This document shows, in pieces, positions 3,301 to 43,221 of a stretch of DNA of 53,567 bases. The notes beneath the pieces are model-generated. The model ran no database searches, had not been told where the DNA came from, and saw only the letters and a program-made list of their open reading frames with translations. This stretch comes from Syntrophomonadaceae bacterium (GTDB lineage Bacteria; Bacillota; PH28-bin88): the NCBI GenBank assembly GCA_018333865.1, contig JAGXSE010000067.1, positions 1 to 53,567 of the forward strand, given 5' to 3'. How positions within the stretch are numbered: the stretch's first letter is position 1; every line of letters starts with the position of its first letter. A program made the position numbers and the translations under genes.

Positions 3301-6300
3301 GGATTAAGGATAAGACAGGTGCAGTTCAAAGTTTCAACCCACGCCCCCGTGTGGGGGGCGACATGACCCTTCTGCATTGTTTTGTGGATTGGTTGATGTT
3401 TCAACCCACGCCCCCGTGTGGGGGGCGACGGCAGCATCGAAGCCATTGGTGAAACCAGGAAGCTGTTTCAACCCACGCCCCCGTGTGGGGGGCGACTAAC
3501 CAGCTTCTTGAATATTGCTGCATTGGCAATGTTTCAACCCACGCCCCCGTGTGGGGGGCGACTTGAGGGAGCATGTGGTGATACGCATCAGTGCAGAGTT
3601 TCAACCCACGCCCCCGTGTGGGGGGCGACAAAATAGCGGAAAAAATAATGCTTGCAATGCAAAAGTTTCAACCCACGCCCCCGTGTGGGGGGCGACCTGC
3701 CCAGAACTCCGAGTGTGGTACTGTGCTAATGTTTCAACCCACGCCCCCGTGTGGGGGGCGACCCGAGAAAATGCTATTCGACATCACAATAGACACGTTT
3801 CAACCCACGCCCCCGTGTGGGGGGCGACCATGTCTTTTACTGGTCTATATGTAGTTTTCAAAGTTTCAACCCACGCCCCCGTGTGGGGGGCGACCCCATC
3901 TTGAACCAACTTGAACCGCAAATAAAAGGTTTCAACCCACGCCCCCGTGTGGGGGGCGACATTATGTGACTTGTTTTTATGTCCTGATAAAGTTGTTTCA
4001 ACCCACGCCCCCGTGTGGGGGGCGACTCATAGTAGAAATTATCGTTGCTCTTCTGGATTGTTTCAACCCACGCCCCCGTGTGGGGGGCGACGTTGTCAAC
4101 ACAATAATGTGTACTTGCTCTCCTAGTTTCAACCCACGCCCCCGTGTGGGGGGCGACTAAGTCATTATGTAAATGGGGGTTCATATGCCAAGTTTCAACC
4201 CACGCCCCCGTGTGGGGGGCGACGGATGGAGATCTGCACCACCTAGACCATGCCGCAGTTTCAACCCACGCCCCCGTGTGGGGGGCGACATATTTCACAT
4301 ACTGCATGGGGTTGTCCTTAATGTTTCAACCCACGCCCCCGTGTGGGGGGCGACATGTGGAAAACCCAAGCAGCACCCACATGATTGTTGTTTCAACCCA
4401 CGCCCCCGTGTGGGGGGCGACTGTTATCCACCAGGACCATCCAATCTGAATCAGTGTTTCAACCCACGCCCCCGTGTGGGGGGCGACCAGTGGGAAAACC
4501 TGCGGTCACCTTATGTGGTTGGTTTCAACCCACGCCCCCGTGTGGGGGGCGACGTTGGGAAACTGAATGGGGCATCACCAGGGTTTATGTTTCAACCCAC
4601 GCCCCCGTGTGGGGGGCGACAACTACAGGTAATTATGACGTCGCAAATAACACGTTTCAACCCACGCCCCCGTGTGGGGGGCGACTTCATTGAACAGTCC
4701 TTGTTTACCACCTGCAATTGTTTCAACCCACGCCCCCGTGTGGGGGGCGACGGGTTCAACATGGGTTCAAGATAAAGTTCAAGATGTTTCAACCCACGCC
4801 CCCGTGTGGGGGGCGACGTGACAGCATAGGCATAAGCCTAACGGGTAACTTTGTTTCAACCCACGCCCCCGTGTGGGGGGCGACTCATTTTGACCATCAA
4901 CATAAACACCATCTTTATGTTTCAACCCACGCCCCCGTGTGGGGGGCGACGACCACACCCCAGACGGAATTCACGACCTTAACGGTTTCAACCCACGCCC
5001 CCGTGTGGGGGGCGACCATACGGCCCAGAACACTGCACCTGCCCAGTAGGCGTTTCAACCCACGCCCCCGTGTGGGGGGCGACCAAAGTGTTCGACCGGG
5101 CAGGAATCGTATTCAAGGTTTCAACCCACGCCCCCGTGTGGGGGGCGACGCCGAAGTGGAGGGATATACGGGATGTCACAATTGTTTCAACCCACGCCCC
5201 CGTGTGGGGGGCGACATATATCTTCTGTCCTGTTGGTTTGTATGTCATTTGTTTCAACCCACGCCCCCGTGTGGGGGGCGACGCCAACCACAGAACCAGA
5301 ACCAGAACCAGAACCAGTTTCAACCCACGCCCCCGTGTGGGGGGCGACTTTCAGGGCAGTAAACAGTGAATACACACCACAAGTTTCAACCCACGCCCCC
5401 GTGTGGGGGGCGACGTTTCCGGTCCAGACTGTTAAATTCAAGTTCACGGTTTCAACCCACGCCCCCGTGTGGGGGGCGACAACAGAGCGCGCCCAGCGGC
5501 GGCGCTGTATGTCCTGTTTCAACCCACGCCCCCGTGTGGGGGGCGACGTCAATGAACGCCTGGCGTTCTTCGTCGAATCCTTGTTTCAACCCACGCCCCC
5601 GTGTGGGGGGCGACCTCACAAAATCTGTATTGGGTTACTGCGATACAGTTTCAACCCACGCCCCCGTGTGGGGGGCGACCCGGCGGGGCGCGGCTCAGGC
5701 TTGGCTACTGTGAGTTTCAACCCACGCCCCCGTGTGGGGGGCGACGGCGATGCCGGTTGAGGGGGTGCAAGGCGCAGCCGTTTCAACCCACGCCCCCGTG
5801 TGGGGGGCGACCTCGCTGCCACCGACCATGCGCCCTGTCGAAAACGTTTCAACCCACGCCCCCGTGTGGGGGGCGACCTGCCGCTGGATATCGCTCTCAA
5901 CCGGGTCGCCGGGGTTTCAACCCACGCCCCCGTGTGGGGGGCGACGAAGGTGAATCAACTAAAGAAGTTGAAGCACCTGTTTCAACCCACGCCCCCGTGT
6001 GGGGGGCGACAGTCTCCCGCTACGAGCTACACTAGCGCGTCCGTATGTTTCAACCCACGCCCCCGTGTGGGGGGCGACCTCCGCAAATACCGATGAGCGT
6101 AGGCAACACCGAGTTTCAACCCACGCCCCCGTGTGGGGGGCGACTTCATTAAGACATACCCATGCAACAACCCTGATTGTTTCAACCCACGCCCCCGTGT
6201 GGGGGGCGACCAAAAAGCAATATGTTTCGCTTCACCCGCTGATGTTTCAACCCACGCCCCCGTGTGGGGGGCGACCTGGTGGCTGATGGCTTTGCTGATG

Positions 6301-6602: not shown

Positions 6603-7514
6603 TTATATCTCAATAATTGACACAGCTTCTGGTATCTTATCTTTATTCACAGAAATCGAGTAATCACTGAAATCTCTTGCCGGCTTACTTTCATTTTTTC
6701 GCTTTATAGTAACTGCCTCAAAAAGTTTCTGTACCGGTGCGTCACCCATTTTAGAAGTATGTTCAAAGATAATCAGTTTTCTGGTTCCCATCAACCCGCG
6801 AGCAGCAGAACGGTCATGCTCAAACATGTTTTCAAGCGCCTCCCAGAGAAGCTCTAAATCTCCCTGAGAAAAGCCGGTCTGATTAGCAAAAGGCGCTGAA
6901 ATAAATCCGTGTGCGCGATAGAGCCCGTAAGGAATGGTAAACTTCCTGCCCATCGTGCGGTTATCCCCACCCTGCTCTTCTGCTTCGGTTTTTGTTGTAA
7001 CTGCCATGCGGGTTATGCTGTGCTCAAGGGATACAATAGGGTCTACCGAACGCGCAAATGTAAACTGCACCGGGCCGCGCACCTGCCCTGCATTGGCACC
7101 TGTTGACAAGACGGCTCCAAACGTTCTAATGTCATAAAAATTCTGGCATAAAAACTGCTTTGCTTGATCAATTTCCTTGCCTTGTCCTTGTCCTTTCTTA
7201 TTTCTTTTTTTGCCATCTTCCGGATCGGCAGGAGTTTCTTGCAAATCAATCTTCAGGCTAATGTATGCCTGCTCGATGGTGTCATTTAAAACCGATTTTT
7301 CTTTAATAAAAATACCATAAGGCGGCTGCCCATCTTTTTTTAGACCGATATAATTTCTTATCTTCCTTTTTATGCAAACATCTGTAACTAGCCCGTGTCC
7401 TGTTTCGGCATCCACGCGGGGCAAATTTCCAGCATCCGGGTCCCCATTAGGATTACCGTCTTTTACATCAAAGAAAAACACAAAATCATAGCGCTTCTGG
7501 ATAGAATTATTCAT
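6603..7514 (-). CDS. cas7: Cas7c (Csd2), type I-C Cascade backbone
   Basis: The 303-aa protein has the Csd2/Cas7 N-terminal signature [20 protein letters not shown] followed by [20 protein letters not shown]. Cas7 is the repeated backbone subunit that binds the crRNA spacer in the type I-C Cascade complex; it is expected in six to seven copies. The length is normal for the family. It is the last gene of the cas operon, 25 bp after cas8c, and its stop codon lies 193 bp from the first repeat. The ATG at 7514 has an AAGGG-like ribosome site about ten bases upstream. No missing or broken segment is visible. Confidence 0.96.
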
Positions 7515-7539
7515 TTATTACTTGCACCCTTTCTTATTC

Positions 7540-9285
7540 TTATTCTTCTTTTTTAGCAAAAAATTTCTGCCTTTGATGGTAGTATCCGATAGCAAACCTC
7601 CCTTGTTCATGCAATTCAAGATGTGCAGGAAAATCTTTAAGATTGCTCATAATCTCACCCAACAGCCGCTCAAAATTGACTACTCTGCCCTTGTTTTCAA
7701 TTTTTGCCAGATGGTAGTTCTTTAAACGAAACAAATTAGTGAATACGGTTACCGGGGTTGTACATGCGGCACCGTAAAAACGTTCCCGGATAGTGGCGTT
7801 AATACCCGGATTAGCCTCCTCCTGAATCTTTTCAAGCACAGCAAACAATCTCCCAAGTTGATACCCTGTAGAAGGTTGAGAAATATCCAATTCCACACTC
7901 ATCTCCTTTTGATTTATATCTTGATTAAACCTATGGTAACGGTTTAAATAAGCCTTAATCAGTGCCGCTCTAATTGGCTTGACCCTGCTCTCTGTATCGC
8001 TGCGAATGCGCCGAAGCGCTGCCTGAAGTAACGTTGCCGGATAAGGGGTGCCGTTTAGGATAGACTTCATGAAATCGCCCGCCAGATTTGGAGGGATATT
8101 CTCGGTTTTGTCCTGGGTGGCGATATTTACCAGAATACGCCAAATCGAGTAGTACTCCGGCTCTTTTGGCGGTTTAACTATGACAAAATCTTCAAAATAC
8201 TGCTTGATCCGGGTTGCAAACTCAGAGATTGTGCCAACTTGCCAAAACCGGACAGAAATCCGGGCCGCATTTGGGGCAAGCCCTAAGACATAAAATCTGG
8301 TCTTGCCGTCATCTTCATAATAAGCGCCGCTATTCACCGATTCGAAAAGTGCCTTTACTTTTCTCGCTCCTTCATCGGGATTATCTTTTTCAGGCTCCTT
8401 AAAAAATGATGAAAAATCTGACTCAAAAGATGATTCTTTTGCAGACCAGAAAACAGTTGAGGTATCACCGATCAAAAGACGCTGAGATCTTGATTTGAGC
8501 AAGGTATTTAATGCTGTCACATAAGCAAATTCAGATGACTTTATCACCGGAGCATTATAGCCCTGTTCTTTTCCATATGAGTCGTATCCGCTATTCCTTT
8601 GAATCCCTACCAGGCTCTTTGAATCTTTGTTGATTGGTGTGTTACCATGTATTCTTGCGATTACGCCAAATTCACCAGTAACTAAACAAATGCCTGTTCT
8701 TATACTGCTATCTGATCCCTCATCTTCTTCATTTTTATTTAATGAGTCTAAATTGCGGCTGACAAATTCCTGTACTTTTTTTCGACATGGCACTGGAACA
8801 TCTGATACTACCTGAAAGGACATGTTGCGTTGAGTCGATTTTAAGCATTCTTGAATACATGGACTTGCAATAGCCTTTGCCACACCCCCTTTTTCATAAA
8901 ACTGAACAACAGCATTCACACCAACATCTTCCAGCAATTCGTCGGGAAGATTTTTTAGTTCATTAAGCCAAGTATGATGCTGCTTTGCTGATTTCTCATC
9001 TTCAACAGGAAGTCCCAATAAATATCCGATATGGTCCCACAGCAAAAAAGTGGTTTCGTAACTCCTGCTACCCGATCTGACTTTTGACCTCGGAAGCAAA
9101 AATGTTTTGGCAACCAGCTTGTTTCCAATTTTTTCTCTCGTATCTTCGATATTGATGAATTCACCCTTATCATTAATAATTATTAGAAACTGCAACTCTT
9201 TTCTTTCAAAACCCTCCGGGGCAATTTCGCTTTCAGTGTCGGCGATTTTCCTGTCGTAATACTCTTTTAACGCCTGCAATATCAT
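7540..9285 (-). CDS. cas8c: Cas8c (Csd1), type I-C large subunit
   Basis: A 581-aa Csd1-type protein that starts MILQALKEYYDRK and has a KTFLLPRSKVRSGSR region and an SYETTFLLWDHIGYLLGLP-like segment, all usual for Cas8c. Cas8c recognises the PAM and helps recruit Cas3; in several I-C systems an internal start also yields a small Cas11 from the 3' part of this gene. Such an internal start was not identified here. The ATG overlaps the cas5 stop in an ATGA, so the two genes are translationally coupled. The length matches the family and there is no frameshift. Confidence 0.95.
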   Translation of the reverse strand: MILQALKEYYDRKIADTESEIAPEGFERKELQFLIIINDKGEFINIEDTREKIGNKLVAKTFLLPRSKVRSGSRSYETTFLLWDHIGYLLGLPVEDEKSAKQHHTWLNELKNLPDELLEDVGVNAVVQFYEKGGVAKAIASPCIQECLKSTQRNMSFQVVSDVPVPCRKKVQEFVSRNLDSLNKNEEDEGSDSSIRTGICLVTGEFGVIARIHGNTPINKDSKSLVGIQRNSGYDSYGKEQGYNAPVIKSSEFAYVTALNTLLKSRSQRLLIGDTSTVFWSAKESSFESDFSSFFKEPEKDNPDEGARKVKALFESVNSGAYYEDDGKTRFYVLGLAPNAARISVRFWQVGTISEFATRIKQYFEDFVIVKPPKEPEYYSIWRILVNIATQDKTENIPPNLAGDFMKSILNGTPYPATLLQAALRRIRSDTESRVKPIRAALIKAYLNRYHRFNQDINQKEMSVELDISQPSTGYQLGRLFAVLEKIQEEANPGINATIRERFYGAACTTPVTVFTNLFRLKNYHLAKIENKGRVVNFERLLGEIMSNLKDFPAHLELHEQGRFAIGYYHQRQKFFAKKEE

Positions 9286-10016
9286 CCTCTCACCTCAATT
9301 TCCCTACGATCTGTATTTATTGCGCCATTATCGATAATCGCCCTAAAAAACTTCGGTACCGGGTCATTTTCATTTTGTTCATAGTCCATATCGTACAACA
9401 TGAACCCCAAATCACGCGTTTCGTCAATCAAGAGTGCCGGTTCAGCTTTTGAATCCACCAGCTTGAAATCACACGCGAATTCCCGGCAGCCTAAATATGG
9501 ACGATGAAAGCACTGGCCTTTTTTTGCCCGCCGCTCAAACATTGCCGCATATTTTGCTTCAGTTTCATCCATCCGGGTTATCATTGCCGTTTCATGTCCG
9601 TCCGCCCAGAATTCAGTTGAAACAGAGCGGTTTGATTTTCTTTTTTCCAGTGGAATAAAATCAAAATAACCGCGAATCCGATACCTGACATCCCTTAAAA
9701 AAAGCCCTGCCCGTTGTTGACGCGCATCTTCAATAAAAATACCCATCGGCTCATCGCGTTCCCCTGAAAGTTGTTTAGCTGTGGGACCAGGCACCGTTTT
9801 CCCTACTTCATTGCGGCGAACGGATATCCATCTGACCGGATTTAGGACTTCAATTCTTGTTATATTCCAACGGATGGCCGGTTTCCATAAAATGGCCTCA
9901 AAAATAGCCCTGGCCGCCGATGGGGTCATCACATCGTAACTCACTCGCTCTACTTTCATTTCCGGACGTGTAAAACAGGCGTAATCACCCCATACTTCCA
10001 AACACCAATCTCGCAT
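9282..10016 (-). CDS. cas5: Cas5c/Cas5d, pre-crRNA endonuclease of type I-C
   Basis: The 244-aa protein begins MRDWCLEVWGDYACFTRPEM and continues with VERVSYDVMTPSAARAIFEA, the standard start of Cas5d, with the WISVRRNEVG segment further on. In type I-C, which lacks Cas6, Cas5d cuts the pre-crRNA at the 3' base of the repeat hairpin and then holds the 5' handle in Cascade. This fits the repeat hairpin and predicted 11-nt handle seen in the adjacent array. A good ribosome site (AGGGGAGG) precedes the ATG. It lies 17 bp after cas3 and overlaps cas8c by 4 bp. Confidence 0.95.
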   Translation of the reverse strand: MRDWCLEVWGDYACFTRPEMKVERVSYDVMTPSAARAIFEAILWKPAIRWNITRIEVLNPVRWISVRRNEVGKTVPGPTAKQLSGERDEPMGIFIEDARQQRAGLFLRDVRYRIRGYFDFIPLEKRKSNRSVSTEFWADGHETAMITRMDETEAKYAAMFERRAKKGQCFHRPYLGCREFACDFKLVDSKAEPALLIDETRDLGFMLYDMDYEQNENDPVPKFFRAIIDNGAINTDRREIEVRG

Positions 10017-10033
10017 TTTTTGCCTCCCCTTTT

Positions 10034-12265
10034 TTATAAAATAAATTGTTCCGGGTTATAATCAGTGTCGCTGACGAGAAGCCCAACCTCTGCCGAATAA
10101 TCAAAGTCGGTTACAACGGCATAAATATTTGGTTGCACTTCTTCAACAGCGCCCCGCTTACGCATTTCTTTGAAATCGTAATCATATATATTTACTGTGT
10201 ATCTCTGAAGTTTTCGTAATAACCACCGTTTTGGCCCCTCTGATTTTAATAAATCAATCAAACTTTTGCCTTCGCCGTAACTGACCAAAACCGTTTTTTG
10301 CATAGAGTCGTCAATGATCCGGAATCTTTCTGCGGCTGTCCGAAAAAAAATGCTGCATTCGGACTTCTCCGGGTTCAGCAAAGAAATTATCTCTTTTAAA
10401 TCCAACGAATTGGCTCTCCAGTACAATTCCGCAAAAAATTTCTCAAATAGGTTATAATTTAGCGGGTCATCACATTGAGTTGAAAAAATGCCGCGGGTAG
10501 TGTCTGCCGCCTTTCGGAGGATACCTGGAGGAGCTTTTCTGGGTGCGTTGAAAATAACAACCTTGCCCAATCCGGGCAATTTTCCTTCTCTGTTGCAACG
10601 GCCGGCAGCCTGGGCAATAGAGTCAAGACCGGCAAACACTCTGTAGACAACAGGAAAATCAAAGTCAACACCGGCCTCTACCAGTTGGGTACTGATAACC
10701 CGGACCTCTTCTTTGTTTTTCAGCTTCTGCTTTATTTTTTCAATAATTTCACTGCGGTGCTGGCCGCACATTAGGGCTGACAAATGAAATGTCCCCTCAG
10801 GCATCAAACGATATAGCTCACGGCAACTTTTCCGATCGGAAACGATACACAGAACCTGTTCGTGCTGAATCAGATCTTCCGCAATTTCATCCCATGTAGT
10901 TACGGCATGAATGTCTTCAGGCAGTTGAACATTTACCCGTTTTAAAGAATCATACAGTGCCCCCACATTATCACCCATTATCTCGGTGATTTTTTTCAAA
11001 CCTGTAAACTGTTTTCCATCCACAAAACGGTCTTTAAATGCCGGCTGAGTTGCGGTTGAAATTACAAAACTTACATGATAATGGTCAGTAAGAAGCTGCA
11101 TTGTTTCTAATATCGGCTTTAAATATTCAACCGGGACTAACTGTGCTTCATCCAAAATGACCACCGATCGCGCAATATTGTGCAGCTTGCGGCACCGGCT
11201 GGATTTTGCGGCAAAAAGAGACTCAAAAAACTGCACTGTAGTAGTGACAATAACCGGGGCATCCCAATTTTCCGAGGCCAGGCGAGATTTCACCGTAGAG
11301 TCATCTTCATCCAAACTTGAATGATGCTCCACAATCTGGTCTTCCCCAACTGCCAAACGGAATACATCTGCATTTTGCTCAATAATGCTGGTATAAGGGA
11401 TTACGTAAATAATGCGGTCCAGACCGTGATGCACTGCGTGTTCAAGGCCAAATGCAAGGCTTGACAGTGTTTTTCCTCCGCCTGTAGGCACTGAAAGAGA
11501 AAAGATGCCTTGAGGCTCTTTTGCCATCTGGACACACTTTGCCCGAACATCTCTTCTGATTTTATTTACCGATGTATCTGCTGATGTTTCTTCCAATCGC
11601 TTATTATACCTGTTAAGCCGCTCAAGGAGTTCCGCCATAGAACAATAACCACCCCTGGCAGCCGTCCGTTCAGGGTCCATGTATGCTTCTGTGTCTAAGA
11701 AATCTGCATCCACAAGACACGAAAACAGCATCCTAATCCATAAAGACAAATCCAAACCATGGGCAAATTTCCATGGTGGATGCTCTGGTTTTGATGACAT
11801 TATTCTGTCTCTAATCAGATTATCGATATCTTTCAAATCTTTGACTTGTGAAGCCTGAAACTGCAGCGAGGATTGTCCGGCGCCCTCGGAACTGGACCAA
11901 TCCGGCAGACCCGCGTGGTGTCCTGCAATAGTATAGGCCAAAAACCTCCCTATCACTTTACCAAACAATTCCTCGGCTAGTTTGGCACCATGAATGGCAT
12001 GAAGGACCTTTCCGGATTTATTCTCAAGATGAGCTTCTTCATCATAATAGCCGCTTTTGCGCTGAATATAACCATACCACACCAACCTGGCTTTTCCTGT
12101 ATCATGGAACGCCCCGGCGGCTTTTCCCCATGAGCCGGATTGGAATTTGGCAGCGTTTTTTTCTGCAATTAAAGCGGTTTTTTCTAAATGATCCAATAGC
12201 ATATGGGGCGGCGCCCAGGTGCCGTCATCATTTTTTCTTACGTGCGCAATGAATTTACCACTCAT
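10034..12265 (-). CDS. cas3: Cas3, HD nuclease-helicase
   Basis: A 743-aa protein with the HD nuclease domain first (AFHDTGK at about residues 52-58, AGHHAGLPDW near 130) and a superfamily 2 helicase after it. The helicase shows SVPTGGGKT (Walker A), VVILDEAQ (motif II), ISTATQ (motif III) and QAAGRCNREG (motif VI). Cas3 is recruited by Cascade to an R-loop and degrades the non-target strand. Domain order and length are those of type I-C Cas3. The start ATG overlaps the cas2 stop, so cas2 and cas3 are likely coupled; this junction of adaptation and interference modules is unusual for I-C, where cas3 normally comes first. Confidence 0.96.
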   Translation of the reverse strand: MSGKFIAHVRKNDDGTWAPPHMLLDHLEKTALIAEKNAAKFQSGSWGKAAGAFHDTGKARLVWYGYIQRKSGYYDEEAHLENKSGKVLHAIHGAKLAEELFGKVIGRFLAYTIAGHHAGLPDWSSSEGAGQSSLQFQASQVKDLKDIDNLIRDRIMSSKPEHPPWKFAHGLDLSLWIRMLFSCLVDADFLDTEAYMDPERTAARGGYCSMAELLERLNRYNKRLEETSADTSVNKIRRDVRAKCVQMAKEPQGIFSLSVPTGGGKTLSSLAFGLEHAVHHGLDRIIYVIPYTSIIEQNADVFRLAVGEDQIVEHHSSLDEDDSTVKSRLASENWDAPVIVTTTVQFFESLFAAKSSRCRKLHNIARSVVILDEAQLVPVEYLKPILETMQLLTDHYHVSFVISTATQPAFKDRFVDGKQFTGLKKITEIMGDNVGALYDSLKRVNVQLPEDIHAVTTWDEIAEDLIQHEQVLCIVSDRKSCRELYRLMPEGTFHLSALMCGQHRSEIIEKIKQKLKNKEEVRVISTQLVEAGVDFDFPVVYRVFAGLDSIAQAAGRCNREGKLPGLGKVVIFNAPRKAPPGILRKAADTTRGIFSTQCDDPLNYNLFEKFFAELYWRANSLDLKEIISLLNPEKSECSIFFRTAAERFRIIDDSMQKTVLVSYGEGKSLIDLLKSEGPKRWLLRKLQRYTVNIYDYDFKEMRKRGAVEEVQPNIYAVVTDFDYSAEVGLLVSDTDYNPEQFIL

Positions 12266-12552
12266 ACAATCATCGTCCCTTCAGGGTCGAAGGCCTGTTT
12301 CGCCCCCACATGCTCGACCCTTCTCTTCCAGTTGCTGCCGAGAAAATAATAACGCAAGCTATCTTTCTCAGGATCGATAATCCCCTCAAGCCTGTTTTTC
12401 AGCGCAGCAAACTGGGCCGGTTCCAGCAGGCATTCAAAAACAGAGTTTTGCACCCGCTGGCCGTGGTTAACACATTGTTTGGCCACATGGCGCAGCCTTT
12501 TTTTACCTGCCTCAGTGGTAGTATTTACGTCATATGTGATAAGCACCATCAT
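12262..12552 (-). CDS. cas2: Cas2, adaptation endoribonuclease-fold subunit
   Basis: A 96-aa ferredoxin-fold protein. The first strand contains the ITYDVNT motif with the conserved Asp, then GKKRLRHVAKQCVNHGQRVQ and NSVFECLL, the usual type I-C Cas2 pattern. Cas2 dimerises and bridges two Cas1 dimers to form the spacer integrase. It sits 16 bp after cas1 and overlaps cas3 by 4 bp. The start is ATGATG; either Met is possible, with GGGGAG upstream. Confidence 0.95.
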   Translation of the reverse strand: MMVLITYDVNTTTEAGKKRLRHVAKQCVNHGQRVQNSVFECLLEPAQFAALKNRLEGIIDPEKDSLRYYFLGSNWKRRVEHVGAKQAFDPEGTMIV

Positions 12553-12568
12553 AACTTTTTTCTCCCCT

Positions 12569-13624
12569 TTACTTCCAGATAAAAGGGGGATAACTATCCA
12601 AATCTCCCCTCAAATGCCTGGCCAATAGCAAAGCCTGGGCATACGGCATAAGTCCCACAGGAATTTTTTCCTCCAGAAACGGGTGGGTTATTTCTTCTCT
12701 TTTCCTGTTTTGCCAGGCTTCAATTACTGTCTTTCTGGCAGTGTCTTTCATTATCACTCCACCCGGTTCTTTCTTGATAAAATCGTCTCCTTTAACTTGC
12801 CGCCTGTTGATCAGACTCAGCGCCAGCCTGTCCGCCATGTAAGGCCGGAACTCCTCCATCAGGTCAAGTGCCAGACCGGCCCTGCCCGGCCGGTCCCGGT
12901 GGAGAAATCCCACGTATGGATCCAGGCCCACCGACTCCAGCGCCGCTCTGGTTTCATGCAAAAGCATGCTGTAAAGAAATGATAGCAAAGCGTTCATATT
13001 GTCCAGAGGAGGCCGCCGGCTTCTCTGGCGCATGTAGAAATGATCCTTCTGGCTCACAATCAGCCTGTCCAGCACGGAAAAATAATGTCTGGCTGTTTCA
13101 CCTTCTATTCCCCTCACCTCGTCCAGCCCTGGCTCTTTTCCCAGACGAAGGACATTCCGGGCCATTATCTTGATTGCTTCCTCTATCTCCCCGGTTTCAG
13201 CTTTCTCACCAAAATCACTTATATACCGCCTTAATACTGTTCTGCAATTGGCGATTTTGCCTATTATGAACATTGAGGCCAGATTTGCTGAAGCCGGCTC
13301 GGAATCGGCCAACCGGTATTGTTTTCTCCTTAACAGCACATTCCCCTTGGGTGAGCCGTGTACGGTGGCCATATGTCTGCCGCTGCCGGTGAGGAAGCTG
13401 ACGGCAACCCCTTTTTCAACACACATCCCTAAAAGCGCCGGGCTGGCACCCAAATGGCCGAAGGTTACTATTCCCTCCAGGTAGTGAATAGGGGTCCGGA
13501 AAATCTCATCCTCCTGCACCCTCACTACAAGGTTTTCGCCGTCTTTTGCCAAATAGGCCTCGGTGTTGGTAACGTATAGAACATTCAGCATTTTCCTCAT
13601 GCCTTTGTTTTCCTCGTCATTCAT
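12569..13624 (-). CDS. cas1: Cas1, CRISPR integrase
   Basis: A 351-aa type I-C Cas1. The N-terminal beta domain has LYVTNTEAYLAKDGENLVVR, and the catalytic helical domain has IEGETARHYF, FLHRDRPGRAGLALDLMEEF and a following ADRLALSLINRRQ. These supply the conserved Glu, His and Asp of the metal site. Cas1 with Cas2 inserts new spacers at the leader end. The annotated ATG overlaps the 3' end of cas4 by 8 bp; Met9 or Met12 are also possible starts and give a better match to the family N-terminus. There is no sign of decay, and the nearly uniform repeats suggest the array has been active. Confidence 0.95.
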   Translation of the reverse strand: MNDEENKGMRKMLNVLYVTNTEAYLAKDGENLVVRVQEDEIFRTPIHYLEGIVTFGHLGASPALLGMCVEKGVAVSFLTGSGRHMATVHGSPKGNVLLRRKQYRLADSEPASANLASMFIIGKIANCRTVLRRYISDFGEKAETGEIEEAIKIMARNVLRLGKEPGLDEVRGIEGETARHYFSVLDRLIVSQKDHFYMRQRSRRPPLDNMNALLSFLYSMLLHETRAALESVGLDPYVGFLHRDRPGRAGLALDLMEEFRPYMADRLALSLINRRQVKGDDFIKKEPGGVIMKDTARKTVIEAWQNRKREEITHPFLEEKIPVGLMPYAQALLLARHLRGDLDSYPPFIWK

Positions 13625-14273
13625 TTTTCATTTCATTTAATATTTTATCCAGGTACAATTTTGCCTTATTTTTGCTAATCGCGAGTTTGGGGACGCAGAT
13701 ATCAATCAATGAACAGTTTTTGCAGTGTTTGCCCTTTGTAGCCGGTGGGGTTTCACCCTTGGCATGGAGTTCGTGCATCCTTCTTGCCAGTTCTTTGACC
13801 TTGCCCCTCAGTGGCTCATCAAATAAAACTCTATGTCTATGTTTTGTCTCGCCATAGTACATGTACCCGTAATCAAGTCTTATACTCAGCATTTCCTCCA
13901 GACAAAGGGCCTGGGCGCACAACTGCACATCATCCCTTTCATCGGGCTTAGGCTTTCCCCGCTTGTATTCTACAATGCTGTACCTGATGCCGGAGCCTTC
14001 CCCGGGGGTTTTTAATATTTCAATTACATCGGCCACACCAAAGAGACCCAGTTTTCTTGATACCAGGGGGACCGACCTTATTGTCCTGATATCGCCTCGC
14101 GATTCTGTATAATACGGATCATCGACCCGTTGGTGAAGCAGCCTGCCTTCCGCTGTACGAAGATTCTCGACCCATTGGCTTTCCACATGGATCAGTCCCC
14201 ATTGTCTTTCACAGAAGGCAAAATGCTGGATGCCCGATAGAGGCAGCAGTTCGTCCTCTGAATAATCATGCAT
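13617..14273 (-). CDS. cas4: Cas4, iron-sulfur exonuclease for spacer processing
   Basis: About 218 aa. A RecB-like nuclease core is shown by GVADVIEIL and YSIVEYKRGKPKP (metal and catalytic residues), with one cluster cysteine in FCERQW near the N-terminus and three in CKNCSLIDIC near the C-terminus, expected to hold a 4Fe-4S cluster. Cas4 trims prespacers and selects PAM-bearing ends with Cas1-Cas2. I chose the ATG at 14273, preceded at good distance by GCGGGGTG; an in-frame GTG at 14282 would add three residues. It is the first gene of the cas operon, so its upstream region 14283-14371 should hold the cas promoter. I see only a GATAAT-like -10 box there, without a convincing -35. Confidence 0.93.
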   Translation of the reverse strand: MHDYSEDELLPLSGIQHFAFCERQWGLIHVESQWVENLRTAEGRLLHQRVDDPYYTESRGDIRTIRSVPLVSRKLGLFGVADVIEILKTPGEGSGIRYSIVEYKRGKPKPDERDDVQLCAQALCLEEMLSIRLDYGYMYYGETKHRHRVLFDEPLRGKVKELARRMHELHAKGETPPATKGKHCKNCSLIDICVPKLAISKNKAKLYLDKILNEMKNE

Positions 14274-14677
14274 CAAAAACACCCCGCTTAGAGGCCGTTA
14301 ATTATCTCGGGCACCAATTCGGTTTAGTCGGCATCAGGCCGCAAAACTGCATGGTCGCCCCTGGCAGCACAACCAAAACAATCCATGTTATGTAATAATT
14401 TGTTATAATTTCGCAGAATCCTCCATGGATATAAAAAAAACCGCACATCTGATAATCGGCATGGGCTTGACAATCCAACAACTAAGGCATTCGGCCGAGT
14501 TTCTTGTGCGATGTATGGAAGGAAGTATATGCCGGGAAGGATACAGGATCCTTTGCATGAAAAATACCGGAATTTCGGGCCTTTTCAGTTATTATGCAAG
14601 ATAATTTGGTAATATATGTAAAGGTATTGACCCTATTATAACGAAATTATTGAGTAAAATTGAAAGGAGGTGAATTT

Positions 14678-37205: not shown

Positions 37206-37511
37206 TCATTGACACCGATATCCGCGAATCTCTAAATCACGAAAAAAGAGAATTCCGCTAACAAATAAACGGGGGGTCTGCCCGGTCGGTATTAATGAAG
37301 GAGACAGGTAAACCCTGACATCTTCAAATTGCAGGAGGTGATAATCTTCCTTGCCTTTTTCCGGTTCGCCTACAGTCACGGTAGGCATAAATAACCCTCC
37401 GCATCAGCCGCGGCCCATGGTGATGCACTTGACAGTGACCACTCCGCCAATCTTTCTGATGAAGCCTTTTGCTTTTTCATCTAACTGTACTATTTGTGAC
37501 CACTCCTTCAA
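37206..37511 (-). CDS. Putative selenoprotein 1, small CC/Se-motif (HesB-like) protein
   Basis: The frame reads through TGA at 37404-37406, followed at once by TGC, giving a Sec-Cys pair: [12 protein letters not shown], then [20 protein letters not shown] and a C-terminal GYRCQ. Without recoding only a 60-codon frame from an internal ATG would be seen. The paralogue at 42688-42972 has TGA-TGC at the same place, and both are followed by a 6-bp hairpin. The family resembles HesB/IscA-like proteins known with either Cys-Cys or Sec-Cys. The start is uncertain: TTG at 37511 overlaps the mutase B12-subunit stop; alignment with the paralogue points to ATA/GTA at 37493-37488 behind AAGGAG, so a canonical ATG may be lost. 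A pseudogene is the main alternative. Role unknown; thiol redox or metal/sulfur handling is plausible. Confidence 0.72.
37368..37386 (-). promoter_or_regulatory. Candidate bacterial SECIS hairpin 1
   Basis: On the minus strand, starting 17 nt after the in-frame TGA, GCCTAC and GTAGGC pair around the loop CGTGACT. Stem length, the ~23-nt distance from TGA to loop, and a G in the first two loop positions meet the usual description of bacterial SECIS elements, which bind SelB. Confidence 0.6.
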
Positions 37512-37969
37512 CTAAGTTTGTTGGGTTCAACAGTGTCCCCTTTTACATGCTGGAACCAGGCCGTTTTTTCTCGCACTGCCTCGCGGATCCACCTGACAAT
37601 TTCTCCAGTGCCTGCGCCGGGGCCAAATAAGGCTTTGGCATAACCCTGATCGATCAATTCCTTGATGTCTTCCTCAGGGATAATTCCGCCCCCCATCACC
37701 AATATATCCTCGGCTCCCTTTTCTTTGAGCAGCTCGTTAATCCTGGGAAATATTGTCATATGGGCGCCGGAGAGGATGCTAAGCCCGATCATATCCACGT
37801 CTTCCTGGATAGCTGCCTCCACTATCTGTTCCGGTGTCTGGTGCAGTCCCGAATAGATCACTTCCATCCCCGCATCCCGCAAGGCGCGGGCCACCAGCCT
37901 GGCACCCCGGTCGTGGCCGTCCAAACCCGGTTTGGCCACCAGCACCCGGATTATGTGTTCTTTATTCAT
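37508..37969 (-). CDS. Acyl-CoA (methylmalonyl-CoA-type) mutase, B12-binding subunit
   Basis: A 153-aa cobalamin-binding protein. It has the base-off B12 signature: [20 protein letters not shown] with the DxHxxG histidine that ligates cobalt, [10 protein letters not shown], and [12 protein letters not shown]. It supplies the adenosylcobalamin domain to the large subunit encoded 16 bp upstream. A longer open frame extends into that gene, but the ATG at 37969 follows GGGAG and gives the exact family start. Its stop codon overlaps the putative TTG start of selenoprotein 1, so the two are probably co-translated. Confidence 0.94.
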
Positions 37970-37985: not shown

Positions 37986-39650
37986 TTAAAACACCGGTTT
38001 TTCCTTATACTCGCCAAACACTTCACGCAATACCTGGATGATTTCCCCTTCGGTGGCGTAAGCCTTGGCACATGCGAGGATATGCGGGACCAGGTTATCC
38101 CTGGTGCCCGCCGCCAGGCGCAGCCTCTCCAGGCCGTTTTGGCAAGCAAGGTTATCTCGCTTTTCCCGGACAGCCTGCAGGCGTTTTTTCTGCTCTTCTT
38201 CAACTTGGGGAGAGATTCTAAGCAGCTCAACCTGCATGGGCTCATTCTGCTGATACTCATTAACGCCAACGATGATCCGTTCTTTTTTTTCGATTTCCTG
38301 CTGGTAATGGTAGGCAGCATCGGCAATTTCCTGCTGAAAGAAGCCCTTGTCAATGGCAGCTAAAACCCCGCCTAACTCTTCAATCCGCTGAAAATACTTT
38401 TCCGCCTCCGCCTCCATCTGGTTGGTCAAAGCCTCAACAAAGTAAGAACCGGCCAAGGGATCGATAGTGTTAATAACCCCGGTTTCCTCAGCGATAATCT
38501 GCTGGGTGCGCAAGGCAATGCGCACCGCTTTTTCCGTCGGCAAAGCCAGGACCTCGTCCATGGAATTGGTGTGCAGCGATTGAGTCCCCCCCAGTACGGC
38601 CGCCATGGCCTCGAAGGCGGTGCGGACGATGTTGTTCTCCGGCTGCTGGGCAGTCAGAGAACAACCGGCAGTCTGGGTATGGAACCGAAGTAGCATCGAG
38701 CGAGGATCTCTTGCGCCGTATTTATCTCTCATGCGGCAGGCCCAGATGCGCCGTGCCGCCCGGTACTTGGCAATCTCCTCGAAGAAATCGATATGGGCAT
38801 TAAAGAAAAAGGAGATCCGGGGAGCAAAGTCATCTACATTAAGGCCCGCCTTAATCCCCGCTTCTACATAGGCAAAGCCGTCGGCCAGGGTAAAGGCCAG
38901 TTCCTGCACTGCGGTTGAACCTGCTTCCCGGATATGATAACCGGAAACGCTCACGGTATTCCACCTGGGTACGTGCTGGCCGGCGAAAGCAAAGATGTCG
39001 GTGATAAGCCTCATTGACGGTTCCGGGGGAAAGATCCATGACTTTTGGGCAATGTATTCCTTCAGGATATCGTTTTGAATTGTGCCGCCCAATTTAAAAA
39101 ACGGCACACCCTGCTTTTCAGCCGTGGCTAGATACATGGCCCAGATGACGGCTGCCGGCGCGTTGATAGTCATGGAAGTAGTAATTTTGTCCAGCGGGAT
39201 GCCCTCAAAAAGGGTCATCATGTCCTCCAGAGAGTCGATGGCCACGCCGACGCGGCCCACCTCCCCCAAAGCACGGGGATGGTCGGAATCGTAACCCATG
39301 ATTGTCGGCATATCGAAGGCCACCGAAAGACCCGTTTGCCCCTGGTTAAGCAGGTATTTATATCGTCCGTTGGACTCTTTGGCTGTGGCAAATCCGGCAA
39401 ACTGGCGCATTGTCCAGAGGCGCCCACGGTACATGTTGGCCTGGATACCGCGGGTGTACGGGTAACAACCCGGATAGCCCAGTTCCCGCGAATAGTCCAG
39501 GTCCTCAACGTCCTCCGGGGTATAGAGGGACTTGATGGGGACAGAGGACACGGAAACAAACTTTTTCGGACGCTCCTTCAGCTTAGCCTCCTCCAATTCC
39601 CATTCTTTTCTCCCCTGACTGATCTCAGCCATGGTCTCATTGATGCCCAC
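37986..39650 (-). CDS. Acyl-CoA mutase large subunit (methylmalonyl-CoA mutase family)
   Basis: A 554-aa TIM-barrel subunit without its own B12 domain. Diagnostic segments are [67 protein letters not shown] and [20 protein letters not shown]. It performs a radical carbon-skeleton rearrangement of an acyl-CoA. The Arg of PSMRLITD, which contacts the carboxylate of methylmalonyl-CoA, and the active-site His are kept, but the position of Tyr89 of the Propionibacterium enzyme is Gln (GIQ in place of GPY). The substrate may therefore be methylmalonyl-CoA or a related acyl-CoA. The start is GTG at 39650; ATG six codons later is possible. Confidence 0.9.
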
Positions 39651-39701: not shown

Positions 39702-40886
39702 CTACTTTTCCAGCCGGATAATTGTTGCCTCACCCTGGGCCGCACCACTGCAGATGGCTGCCATGCCCAGTAAACCGCTGCGCCGCTTAAGCTCCGCCAA
39801 TAATGTCATCAAAATTCTGCCGCCGCTTGCGCCAATAGGGTGGCCAAAGGCAATGGCTCCTCCATTGACATTAACCTTATCAGGTTCCCAGCCACCGAGC
39901 TTGATGGAGGTAAGCGCCACAGCAGCAAAAGCTTCGTTTACTTCAATCAGGTCCAGGTCAGCCGCTGTCAGTCCTGCTTTTTCCAGGGCCTTGTTGCCGG
40001 CAAGCGCCGGAACGGTAGCGATATACGGAGCCGGAGCCGACACTGATCCCTGAGAGACAATAGTGGCTATTGGCCTGATTCCCATGGCCCCGGCCTTCGA
40101 TCTATCCATCAATACCAGGGCAGAGGCGCCGTCGGAAATTGGTGGCGCGTTTCCCGCCGTAATACTGGCGCCTGCTTTAAAAACCGGCCTTAGCTTGGCC
40201 AGGGCTTCCAGGCTGGTATCCCGTCGCGGCAGTTCATCCGCCTCAAAGAGGTCCGGGCCGCCTTTCTTGTGCGGGATTGGTACAGGAACAATCTCTTCGC
40301 GCAACAGGCCGGTATCGTTTGCTTTGATTGCCAACCGGTGGCTGTGGAAGGCCCAGCGGTCCTGCTCCTCGCGGGTAATACCAAACTCCTCGGCCACGTC
40401 ACCGCCATGCACCCCCATGTGGACATCGTGGAACGCGCACCAAAGCCCATCCCGGATCATGGCATCGACTACCTGCCCGTGGCCCATGCGGTAACCGGTC
40501 CTGGCCCTCTCCAAAAGATACGGGGCATTGGACATGCTCTCCATCCCGCCGGCGACCACCACATCTGCCTCGCCGGCTCTGATCAGGGTATCGGCAAGAT
40601 TTACAGCCCGGAGGCTGGAGGCACACACCTTGGAGATGGTATCTGACGGTACCTCCACCGGCAGCCCGGCCTTGATTGTCGCCTGCCGGGATGGGATCTG
40701 CCCTGCTCCGGCTTGCACCACCATACCCATCAGGCAATAGTCTACCTTTTCCCCCGGAACCGTGGCCCGGACTAATGCTTCCCGGATTGCCAAAGCCCCC
40801 AGGTCAACAGCTGAAAAATCTTTCAGGGAACCCAGGAAACCTCCAAATGGCGTCCGGGCAAAGCTGACAATAACCGTTTCCCTCAT
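39702..40886 (-). CDS. Thiolase (acetyl-CoA acetyltransferase family)
   Basis: A 394-aa thiolase. The nucleophile Cys88 lies in SKVCASSLRAVNLA, the NEAF motif in LIEVNEAFAAVA, and the GHP motif in GGAIAFGHPIGASG. The second catalytic Cys is in CSGAAQGEA, where CxGGGQG is more common; the change of two Gly to Ala is mild. It joins or cleaves acetyl-CoA units. The ATG overlaps the stop of the transporter gene, and the mutase large subunit follows after 51 bp, so a pathway linking beta-ketoacyl-CoA chemistry and skeleton rearrangement is likely. The direction, synthesis or breakdown, cannot be told. Confidence 0.92.
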   Translation of the reverse strand: MRETVIVSFARTPFGGFLGSLKDFSAVDLGALAIREALVRATVPGEKVDYCLMGMVVQAGAGQIPSRQATIKAGLPVEVPSDTISKVCASSLRAVNLADTLIRAGEADVVVAGGMESMSNAPYLLERARTGYRMGHGQVVDAMIRDGLWCAFHDVHMGVHGGDVAEEFGITREEQDRWAFHSHRLAIKANDTGLLREEIVPVPIPHKKGGPDLFEADELPRRDTSLEALAKLRPVFKAGASITAGNAPPISDGASALVLMDRSKAGAMGIRPIATIVSQGSVSAPAPYIATVPALAGNKALEKAGLTAADLDLIEVNEAFAAVALTSIKLGGWEPDKVNVNGGAIAFGHPIGASGGRILMTLLAELKRRSGLLGMAAICSGAAQGEATIIRLEK

Positions 40887-42211
40887 CTTCCCACCCCTTT
40901 GCTCAGTCCGAGGGATTGCTCTTTAACACGCACTTCTTTTTCTGGATAATAGAGAAAAATTATGCCGCCAACCAGCACAAACAACACTGCTATTAGCGGT
41001 GTAAGGCGCACCCCGAGAGGGTCGGCGGCAGTGCTGCCAAGAAATTGCAGCAGCAGACCGGTAGCAAACGTTGAGAGGCCGAGGACCGTTTTTAAGACCA
41101 GTCCTTGTGTCCCAAAGTACATCGCTTCCCGCCTTTGACCCGACAAATCCTCATCCAGGTCGGTGATCGAAGAAAGAATGGCGTCAGGCAGAACAAACAG
41201 GCAGGACAGCGGCAGTCCGGCCAAAGCCAGGATAATATAAGCAAAGGTCACTGGCGCCAGACCAAAGACAGGCTGGCCAAGAAAGAAAAAAAGCGGCAGA
41301 ACGAGCACAAATTGGCTTAGAGCTGCGAACATTACCCTTTTGTGCCCCAGCCTTTTGACTAAGAGGTTAATAATCGGAAAAGCCAAAAAAGCAACTCCGA
41401 AGGTGGCAGCAAAAAAGGCTGAGACGCTCTCCTTTGGCAAACCGAGCAGCACCGTCACATAGAAAGGCAGCGACAGGGTAATAATGTTGAAACCAAACCA
41501 GAAGGTAGCATTTGCGGCCAGATAAATACGGAAAGGCCTGTTCCGAAACGTAGTGGTGACGGCTTCGCGCAGTCCCAGGGTGGCAGGCCGCGCCAGGGCA
41601 TATTCTTTTTCCCGCACAAAAAAAAGCGGCAGGTACATCAGGAAAAGCCCGACCCCAGCCATGCTCCAGAGCATCCCCTTAAAGCCAAGCCAACCAATAA
41701 GCGGGCCGGAGCCAACCAGCGCAACCGCTACTCCCAGCAAGGAAAAAACAGCCCGCAAGGTTGCCAGGTCTACCCGGTCATAAGCCTTGCGTGCCAGCTC
41801 AGGCAACAGTGCCAAGTACGGACAAACGTAAACGGTAAAAAGAAAAAAATACGCTCCCATCATAACCAGCAAATACACCATATTCTGGATGCCGTGCGCA
41901 GGTGCCGGCGGGTGGAATAAAGCTACAAAAACCAGCACATAGGCGATCCCGCCTGCCAGCATAAACGGTGTACGCCGGCCCAAGTTGCTACGACAATTAT
42001 CAGACCAGAAACCAATGAGCGGATCTGTCACCGCATCGACCGCCCGGCCAAAAACCAGGATGGCACCGAAGACTGCCGGCAGCAAAAGCGGGGTCGCACC
42101 TTCCACATAAAAAAACATCAGCCAGGTAACGACCAGACGATCTAACATCGCCCAGCCGGCTGAAGAGGCGGTATAAAGCAGCTTAACGGACATGGGCAAC
42201 TTTTTGCTCAA
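40883..42211 (-). CDS. GPH-family (MFS) cation symporter
   Basis: A 442-aa membrane protein with about twelve segments. It has the glycoside-pentoside-hexuronide family motif GRAVDAVTDPLIGFWSDN followed by GRRTPFMLAG, and DAILSSITDLDEDLSGQRRE later. GPH carriers import sugars or other small organic compounds with Na+ or H+. Embedded in an acyl-CoA operon, it may bring in the pathway's acid substrate, though that is inference. The start is TTG preceded by GGAGGGAGTGAG. Its stop overlaps the thiolase start. Confidence 0.88.
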   Translation of the reverse strand: MSKKLPMSVKLLYTASSAGWAMLDRLVVTWLMFFYVEGATPLLLPAVFGAILVFGRAVDAVTDPLIGFWSDNCRSNLGRRTPFMLAGGIAYVLVFVALFHPPAPAHGIQNMVYLLVMMGAYFFLFTVYVCPYLALLPELARKAYDRVDLATLRAVFSLLGVAVALVGSGPLIGWLGFKGMLWSMAGVGLFLMYLPLFFVREKEYALARPATLGLREAVTTTFRNRPFRIYLAANATFWFGFNIITLSLPFYVTVLLGLPKESVSAFFAATFGVAFLAFPIINLLVKRLGHKRVMFAALSQFVLVLPLFFFLGQPVFGLAPVTFAYIILALAGLPLSCLFVLPDAILSSITDLDEDLSGQRREAMYFGTQGLVLKTVLGLSTFATGLLLQFLGSTAADPLGVRLTPLIAVLFVLVGGIIFLYYPEKEVRVKEQSLGLSKGVGR

Positions 42212-42245: not shown

Positions 42246-42347
42246 GCAAGCGGGTAGCACGCGGGGACGGTTCTTGCTTGCTACCTGAACCCTGGGAGCA
42301 AGCGGGTGTAGCAAGCGGGGACGGTTCTTGCTTGCTACCTGAACCCT
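42246..42347. repeat. Two tandem REP-like units (GGGGACGGTTCTTGCTTGC core)
   Basis: Unit 1 (42246-42293) and unit 2 (42298-42347) share GCAAGCGGG, GCGGGGACGGTTCTTGCTTG and CTACCTGAACCCT. The core with GGGGACGGTTC resembles dispersed REP-like sequences of Firmicutes linked to Y1 (RAYT) transposases. Each unit can fold, since GCAAGC repeats are complementary to GCTTGC. Unit 2 provides the stop codon and last residues of the MoaD-like gene. Confidence 0.75.
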
Positions 42348-42637
42348 AATAGCACCCTGTACGGCCCGGGAATGCCGGCTGGGATAAAGCCAACCCGGTC
42401 CCCAGGCTTTACCTTTCCGTCTTTAATCGGGCTCGCTCTGCCATTAACAAATACCGCTTCGATATTTTCTGTGGGCATTCCCAGGAGTTCTGATAATTCA
42501 ACGGCACTGCATTCTCGATCCAGTTCTACATAACAGGGGAAATCCAACCCCTTTTCGAAAGCCAGCTTTTTCAAAGCGCCTAAAAAACGGATTTCCACTT
42601 TACTTTTACACTGATCTTCTTTTTTCAAGGAATCCAC
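42335..42637 (-). CDS. MoaD/ThiS-like beta-grasp protein
   Basis: A 100-aa ubiquitin-fold protein: KVEIRFLGALKKLAFEKGLD, the ELLGMPTENIEAVFVNGRAS middle and GDRVGFIPAGIPGPYRVLLG end are typical of MoaD/ThiS-like proteins of the type found with tungsten or molybdenum enzymes. Classical MoaD ends in Gly-Gly for adenylation; here the frame runs on to GFR and stops inside a REP-like repeat, so no terminal GG is present, though PAG and GPG lie nearby. It starts at GTG with GGGGGTG upstream. A sulfur-carrier role is possible but unproven. It sits between selenoprotein 2 and the transporter. Confidence 0.8.
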   Translation of the reverse strand: MDSLKKEDQCKSKVEIRFLGALKKLAFEKGLDFPCYVELDRECSAVELSELLGMPTENIEAVFVNGRASPIKDGKVKPGDRVGFIPAGIPGPYRVLLGFR

Positions 42638-42687: not shown

Positions 42688-42972
42688 TTACTGACAACTG
42701 TAACCGAAGATCTCCAGCTGGTGAAAAAACAAAAACTTCTGCAGCCCGATTCGCGGCTTTTGGTCCGTTTGCTGCAGTGAAGGCGGCAAGTAAATCTTGA
42801 CCCCTTCTACATCAAGCAGCGAATAATGCTCTTTGGCTTTTTTCGGCTCGCCTACAGTCACGGCAGGCACAATTGACTTCCCGCATCAGCCGCCGCCAAT
42901 GACCAGACATTTAATATGGATGGTCCCGCCTCTTTTCATAATGTACTCTTTCGCTTTTTGATCAATTTGCAT
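42688..42972 (-). CDS. Putative selenoprotein 2, small CC/Se-motif (HesB-like) protein
   Basis: A 94-aa frame from ATG at 42972 to the stop at 42688 includes TGA at 42886-42888 followed by TGC. Read with selenocysteine the protein begins MQIDQKAKEYIMKRGG and has KCLVIGGG-U-CGK (Sec29, Cys30), then PAVTVGEPKKAKEHYSLLDV, LPPSL and a terminal GYSCQ. GGCGGTGAG precedes the ATG, and a hairpin lies 17 nt after the TGA. It is clearly homologous to the gene at 37206-37511, with TGA at the identical position, which argues strongly against a chance nonsense mutation. Conserved Cys22, Sec29, Cys30 and Cys93 suggest a redox or metal/sulfur site. It is the first recognised gene of the mutase operon. Selenocysteine machinery (SelA/B/C/D) is not encoded in the window. 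Confidence 0.8.
42850..42868 (-). promoter_or_regulatory. Candidate bacterial SECIS hairpin 2
   Basis: On the minus strand GCCTGC and GTAGGC (one G-U pair) enclose CGTGACT, 17 nt after the in-frame TGA. The loop is identical to that of hairpin 1 although flanking bases differ. Part of the likeness may reflect the shared PxVTVGEP peptide, so the RNA role needs testing. Confidence 0.6.
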
Positions 42973-42979
42973 CTTAAAC

Positions 42980-43069
42980 TCACCGCCTAGTGTTAATTTC
43001 TCCGGGGTACATCTCTTTCTGCCCGGAAGCCTTGGCCAGAACTTTTTCCAGAGCGCGCAATTTAATCAC
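42980..43069 (-). CDS. Possible small ORF before selenoprotein 2
   Basis: A 29-codon frame from GTG at 43069 encodes VIKLRALEKVLAKASGQKEM and nine more residues, and stops 7 bp before the selenoprotein 2 ATG; its end overlaps that gene's ribosome site. The composition looks protein-like, but no ribosome site was seen for it and no family is recognised. It could be a coupling leader peptide or the remnant of a lost gene. The rest of 43070-43269 holds only a terminator hairpin and probable promoter sequence. Confidence 0.25.
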   Translation of the reverse strand: MIKLRALEKVLAKASGQKEMYPGEINTRR

Positions 43070-43195
43070 CTTGTTTTGTTCGGCCTAGCCGAAGATGTAA
43101 CAAAGTTTATTCAGAAGACTCTGAGTAGTATTTCAACACTTCTTTGCCCTTTCCTTTTATGATAAAAAGGAATTTGCATTTTACAGCATACCTTG

Positions 43196-43221
43196 ATAAA
43201 GAGGGGCCAAATGCAGGCCCC
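43196..43221 (-). terminator. Intrinsic terminator of the QueG-like gene
   Basis: GGGGCC (43203-43208) and GGCCCC (43216-43221) form a stem; on the minus strand it is followed by TCTTTATC, a modest T tract. Confidence 0.6.

Follow-up and report, generated by a model that had tools for sequence, protein, structure and literature searches.

Two predicted selenoprotein genes of the CC/Se motif family at the ends of an acyl-CoA mutase gene cluster

The family catalogued as NF041239, "CC/Se motif family (seleno)protein", is listed among predicted selenoproteins as a "hypothetical protein predicted in Moorella thermoacetica", with no function given (PMC13188914, PMC9312934). For the hairpin that directs selenocysteine (Sec) insertion, the bSECIS model has a G within the first two nucleotides of the loop and a U next (PMC13188914). 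The window analyzed here, a stretch of 53,567 nt from a Syntrophomonadaceae bacterium (contig JAGXSE010000067.1), contains two genes whose products resemble NF041239 in length and in their Sec/Cys site. They differ from the norm of the family in being two Sec-Cys copies that flank an acyl-CoA mutase cluster, and the motif given for the family in review, CxxU, is replaced by G-G-G-U-C-G, with the closest upstream Cys seven residues away. The HesB-like selenoprotein TIGR01911 and the IscA/SufA carriers of PF01521 are probably similar to the window proteins in predicted fold, and Sec29 has a counterpart in them by alignment; in contrast to these, the window proteins have a Sec-Cys pair rather than Sec-x-Gly-Pro, lack the CGC pair, and score below the cut-offs. 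With high confidence, we consider the locus as a whole best explained by an NF041239 selenoprotein with a SECIS-directed Sec29, a predicted IscA/HesB-type fold, and a probable selenol-thiol carrier role, present in two copies that bracket the cluster.

Reading frames, homologues, and Sec machinery

A preliminary description of this DNA had proposed a hidden selenoprotein gene without naming its strand; the gene (copy 1) lies on the minus strand (Table 1). As that description had it, an ATG (42972-42970) follows a ribosome site, the Shine-Dalgarno-like GGCGGTGAG just 5', and the frame holds a single TGA, at codon 29, with TGC (Cys30) next to it. A further 64 codons lead to Gln94 and the stop TAA (42690-42688), for a translation of MQIDQKAKEYIMKRGGTIHIKCLVIGGG-TGA-CGKSIVPAVTVGEP...GYSCQ. 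The expectation that gene callers would cut the gene to its downstream 60 codons was borne out by the mechanical ORF list, which shows copy 1 merely as a 60-residue piece (42688..42870) from GTG 42870. Immediately 5' of copy 1, at 43130..42980 on the minus strand, is a coding-looking remnant (...CYIFG-TAG-AEQNKVIKLRALEKVLAKASGQKEMYPGEINTRR-TGA), possibly a pseudogene fragment.

Table 1. Positions of the features discussed, numbered along the window
Feature	Position	Strand	Basis or remark
CC/Se-family selenoprotein gene (predicted), copy 1; 94 aa, Sec29-Cys30	42688..42972, TAA included	minus	NF041239, 71.4 bits; homologues
Sec codon TGA, codon 29 of copy 1	42886..42888	minus	homologues with TGA or TGC/TGT here
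SECIS hairpin (predicted), copy 1, GCCTGC-CGTGACT-GTAGGC	42850..42868	minus	17 nt past TGA; motif, codon, and covariation tests
CC/Se-family selenoprotein gene (predicted), copy 2; stop is TGA	37206..37493	minus	NF041239, 59.1 bits
Sec codon TGA of copy 2, then TGC	37404..37406	minus	read in frame
SECIS hairpin (predicted), copy 2, GCCTAC-CGTGACT-GTAGGC	37368..37386	minus	G-U pair of copy 1 is A-U here
MoaD/ThiS-like small protein, directly 3' of copy 1	42335..42637	minus	weak Mut7-C ubiquitin match, below cut-off
GPH-type transporter-like protein	40883..42211	minus	TIGR00792, 140 bits, below cut-off
Thiolase (acetyl-CoA C-acetyltransferase)	39702..40886	minus	profile match
Acyl-CoA mutase catalytic subunit	37986..39650	minus	TIGR00641, 795 bits
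Acyl-CoA mutase B12-binding subunit	37508..37969	minus	TIGR00640
Terminator-like hairpin 5' of copy 1	43203..43221	minus	consensus match only; such sites occur near chance frequency

Copy 2 adjoins the far end of the gene cluster, 5 kb from copy 1. The codons after the TGA of copy 1 had been said to match a paralogue; the homology holds, but the paralogous ORF (37388..37206) is itself truncated, with an in-frame TGA-TGC and a homologous N-terminal half upstream, and would be a second selenoprotein gene. The two copies are 53% identical in an ungapped alignment that extends to both sides of the TGA. Their dN/dS is approximately 0.28 before the TGA (dN 0.40, dS 1.45) and approximately 0.20 after it, and purifying selection acts on both sides. 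Copy 2 has no ATG, GTG, or TTG at the expected start, where ATA 37493 or GTA 37490 is in register; the ATA lies 9 nt 3' of AAGGAG. Its start would be a rare AUA, an upstream TTG (37511), or else the sequence contains an error. A third family copy, in Cys-Cys form and above the NF041239 cut-off, is found elsewhere in the genome.

Both window proteins pass the cut-off of the NF041239 profile (40 bits). Across the phylum, 88 of 399 genomes yielded matches, most of them with exactly one TGA, located at the Sec site; a scan of the genome contigs with the single protein gave no match, whereas family searches of whole genomes did detect members. From approximately 10 kb around each match we collected 122 members, in which the site is occupied by Sec-Cys, Sec-Ala, Sec-Gly, others, or Cys-Cys. 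These homologues read in frame through the site, with TGA or a Cys codon there. The N-terminal half is encoded and the frames do not begin after the TGA, the alternative that had been held to count against the gene. A general use of TGA as a sense codon was rejected, since TGA is the stop of copy 2 and of other genes, and the site is specific. Two more members carry TAA or TAG within the match; at locus L089 (G383 contig 13), such copies read as Cys-Cys or Cys-Thr without a start and are for that reason probably decayed.

A lack of Sec machinery had likewise been named as evidence against the gene, but selA, selB, selC, and selD were all found. The genes for SelA (621 bits), SelB (358 bits, one frame), and tRNA-Sec are mutually adjacent on contig C40, and selD (391 bits) carries its own in-frame TGA. 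Because the machinery is complete and selD has this codon, the genome is predicted to decode Sec, and to do so in at least one gene beyond those of the window. On the sequence evidence, copy 1 is a real selenoprotein gene, intact though apparently broken by a stop codon; it belongs to an already catalogued family, and copy 2 is an additional predicted selenoprotein gene found here. The annotation of two genes truncated or missed by ORF callers is thereby corrected.

A predicted coding-region SECIS

In the proposed mechanism, the UGA at codon 29 would be decoded as Sec by SelB and tRNA-Sec under the direction of a coding-region SECIS 17 nt downstream. The hairpin previously placed at this distance is present in copy 1 (42868..42850). 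Its CGTGACT loop, described as conserved, does occur in both window copies, but the exact loop is limited to those two; the family consensus is CGTGNNN within CCT[G/A]C...G[C/T]AGG. In being an in-frame hairpin 17 nt after the UGA, with G within the first two loop positions and then U, the element resembles a bSECIS. It differs in the seven-nucleotide loop CGUGNNN, which is kept across the CC/Se family, other subgroups using GGU-type loops.

We searched downstream of the TGA with a strict pattern, CC[TC][AG][CT][CT]GTGNNN[AG][TC][AG]GG. It was found in 63 of 91 Sec members, 61 of these at the identical distance, and in none of the 24 Cys-Cys members; many of the remaining Sec members have another hairpin, with a GGU-type loop. 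Codon choice was then assessed in 65 Sec members with Pro at +7, a selection made at the protein level. Within the hairpin, Val is encoded by GTG in 61 of 64 cases, compared with about 28% of the Val codons in neighboring genes, and the other hairpin codons are similarly restricted (Pro CCT, 60/65; Ala GCC, 39/39; Thr ACC, 18/18). Across 50 distinct sequences of the six-pair hairpin, 91% of cells are paired, a value that falls to 23-38% when the partner is slid by 1-3 columns. Paired cells in which both bases had changed numbered 34 versus 10.8 in shuffles, with none of 500 shuffles as high; the shuffles ignore relatedness, but their result is matched by the slid control and by codon choice. 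The generic folding energy of the region after the TGA was not distinguishable from that of synonymous shuffles, so the case for a SECIS rests on the specific motif. Synonymous constraint, compensatory changes, and absence from the Cys members together identify the hairpin after the TGA as a predicted SECIS.

Gene neighborhoods and candidate roles

The window cluster runs from copy 1 through the MoaD/ThiS-like, GPH-type transporter, and thiolase genes and the two mutase subunits to copy 2. Copy 1 had been described as standing at the head of an acyl-CoA mutase operon; its position at the head is plausible from the layout, and the terminator-like site would fit a transcript that begins with copy 1. 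The association with the mutase is not conserved among relatives. The closest mutase loci of 12 relatives hold mostly genes that, by their sequence, were named as acyl-CoA dehydrogenase, adenosyltransferase-like, and MeaB-like; a CC/Se gene is missing from these loci apart from one genus, in which it stands at a distance of 7.3 kb. We accordingly dropped the mutase as a functional clue, the link being local to this genome. The MoaD-like neighbor was also dropped as a conserved partner; it occurs only at the window and, farther off, near the third copy. Within the window, the diverged copies 1 and 2, which bracket the acyl-CoA mutase/thiolase/transporter cluster, are presumably co-expressed with it. 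Between the MoaD-like and transporter genes is a 47-nt direct repeat (42254..42354) whose units, at a spacing of 54, are 91% identical; it also shows partial inverted symmetry. A long CRISPR-like array (~1158..6035; repeat FNPRPRVGGD/STHAPVWGAT in two frames) adjoins cas genes at 6603..14282.

Neighbors of the other family members, given here as counts and not as enrichments, are diverse, and no single function is therefore indicated. In seven loci a thioredoxin gene lies directly beside the member, within 160 nt and on the same strand, and in four a CoA-disulfide reductase gene adjoins it. A role as a thiol-disulfide (selenosulfide) oxidoreductase working with thioredoxin is quite possible, as Sec beside Cys is a redox-type pair. 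Against this, the thioredoxin neighbors are confined to a few related lineages, and the pair is not universal, Sec being followed by Ala or Gly in many members. Tungsten aldehyde:ferredoxin oxidoreductase genes stand beside members at L122, L132, L152, L153, and L155.

At four loci a member lies in an ars cluster, in the order ArsR-ACR3-CC-ArsC at L096 and ArsR-UC-ArsC-ACR3 at L120, and with ArsR and ACR3 at L094 and L123; a SaoE/SO_0444-like efflux protein is encoded beside members at L094 and L089. Within the clusters of ArsR, ACR3, and ArsC, the CC/Se gene is in Sec form once. Such a placement points to arsenic binding as a possible role of some family members. Extending it to the window, with a soft-metalloid (arsenic-type) binder acting through Sec-Cys or Cys-Cys and recruited to protect thiol- or cobalamin-dependent acyl-CoA enzymes, is doubtful: the window cluster showed no ars gene, the majority of members are located away from ars genes, and redox-protein neighbors are at least as frequent. 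Thioredoxin-linked redox and arsenic binding are testable proposals for the family.

Predicted fold and the relation to IscA/HesB proteins

AlphaFold2, run with 65 family members, predicts one helix and a beta-sandwich (pLDDT 95.1, pTM 0.82); in the model, strands 17-28 and 31-40 form a beta-hairpin whose tip is made up of residues 29-30. A Foldseek search of the PDB returned IscA/SufA/HesB-type structures as all of the top eight matches, seven with probability 0.99-1.00, although by score the same matches are weak (best E 1.4e-3, all above 0.001; TM 0.38-0.58), and a direct sequence search of the PDB with the protein found no credible match. An hhalign comparison with IscA/HesB sequences of the phylum gave 92.9% and placed GGGUCG over GGCSG, so that Sec29 aligns with the first IscA cysteine and with the Sec of a HesB-like selenoprotein. 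The protein would accordingly fold as a helix plus an IscA/HesB-type beta-sandwich, with Sec29 and Cys30 adjacent at the hairpin tip, in the place of the first cluster cysteine. The earlier label "HesB-like" is probably apt at the level of predicted fold, from both Foldseek and hhalign, but not by Pfam or TIGRFAM membership or by the CGC ligands.

A genuine HesB/IscA A-type Fe-S carrier in which Sec replaces a cluster ligand is, in our estimate, unlikely. Beyond the fold and the hhalign value, 18 of 65 members weakly match PF01521 and nine match IscA_HesB_Se, and at E<=1e-10 no PF01521 protein was found in this genome. The window proteins themselves have no PF01521 or TIGR01911 match and reach 14.9 bits against a cut-off of 85 for NF038090. 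Of the IscA cluster cysteines, the first alone is matched, by Sec29; the C-terminal CGC pair is absent, and the sole C-terminal Cys, Cys93, is not conserved in the family. In the preferred reading, since these two C-terminal ligands are missing, the protein would most likely work through its vicinal selenol-thiol pair, as a carrier in thiol/selenol redox or for soft metal(loids), and not as an Fe-S scaffold. At the same threshold, PF01521 was found in 4 of 61 genomes of the phylum, in which the CC/Se family is common.

A true stop at the TGA, which would leave either the mechanical 60-residue ORF from GTG 42870 as the real protein or a pseudogene that arose by nonsense mutation, is extremely improbable, given the TGA in register in copy 2 and dozens of homologues, the uninterrupted N-terminal frames of the Cys members, the hairpin with its constrained synonymous positions and compensatory changes, the dN/dS before the TGA, and the position of the supposed GTG start at the base of the SECIS stem.

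For the preferred reading, a selenol-thiol carrier, we tentatively extend the model to the family: CC/Se may be an IscA-derived scaffold that has lost its Fe-S ligands and presents a hairpin-tip chalcogen pair (Cys-Cys, Sec-Cys, or Sec-Sec) as a soft metal(loid)/redox carrier for differing client operons, here a mutase cluster flanked by two copies. A previously uncharacterized family gains a predicted fold, a defined candidate SECIS, and a site that corresponds to the first cysteine of IscA.

A subgroup of the family has two TGA codons in tandem as its Sec site; the 11 such genes that we read through come from six genera or more and are homologous on both sides (L175-L183 at ~1580-1600, L143:5067, and L151:5061, gene strand). 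These codons would specify adjacent selenocysteines, Sec-Sec, which we record as a lead. In the table of a 2026 review, adjacent Sec residues are listed for none of the families, and the CC/Se family is entered with a single Sec (PMC13188914); a text search of a collection of papers found no report of a Sec-Sec form of this family. At 16-19 nt past the second TGA, each TGA-TGA gene has a strong hairpin of 7-8 bp whose loop consists of four bases, mostly GGNN, and several of the genes lie beside aldehyde:ferredoxin oxidoreductase genes.
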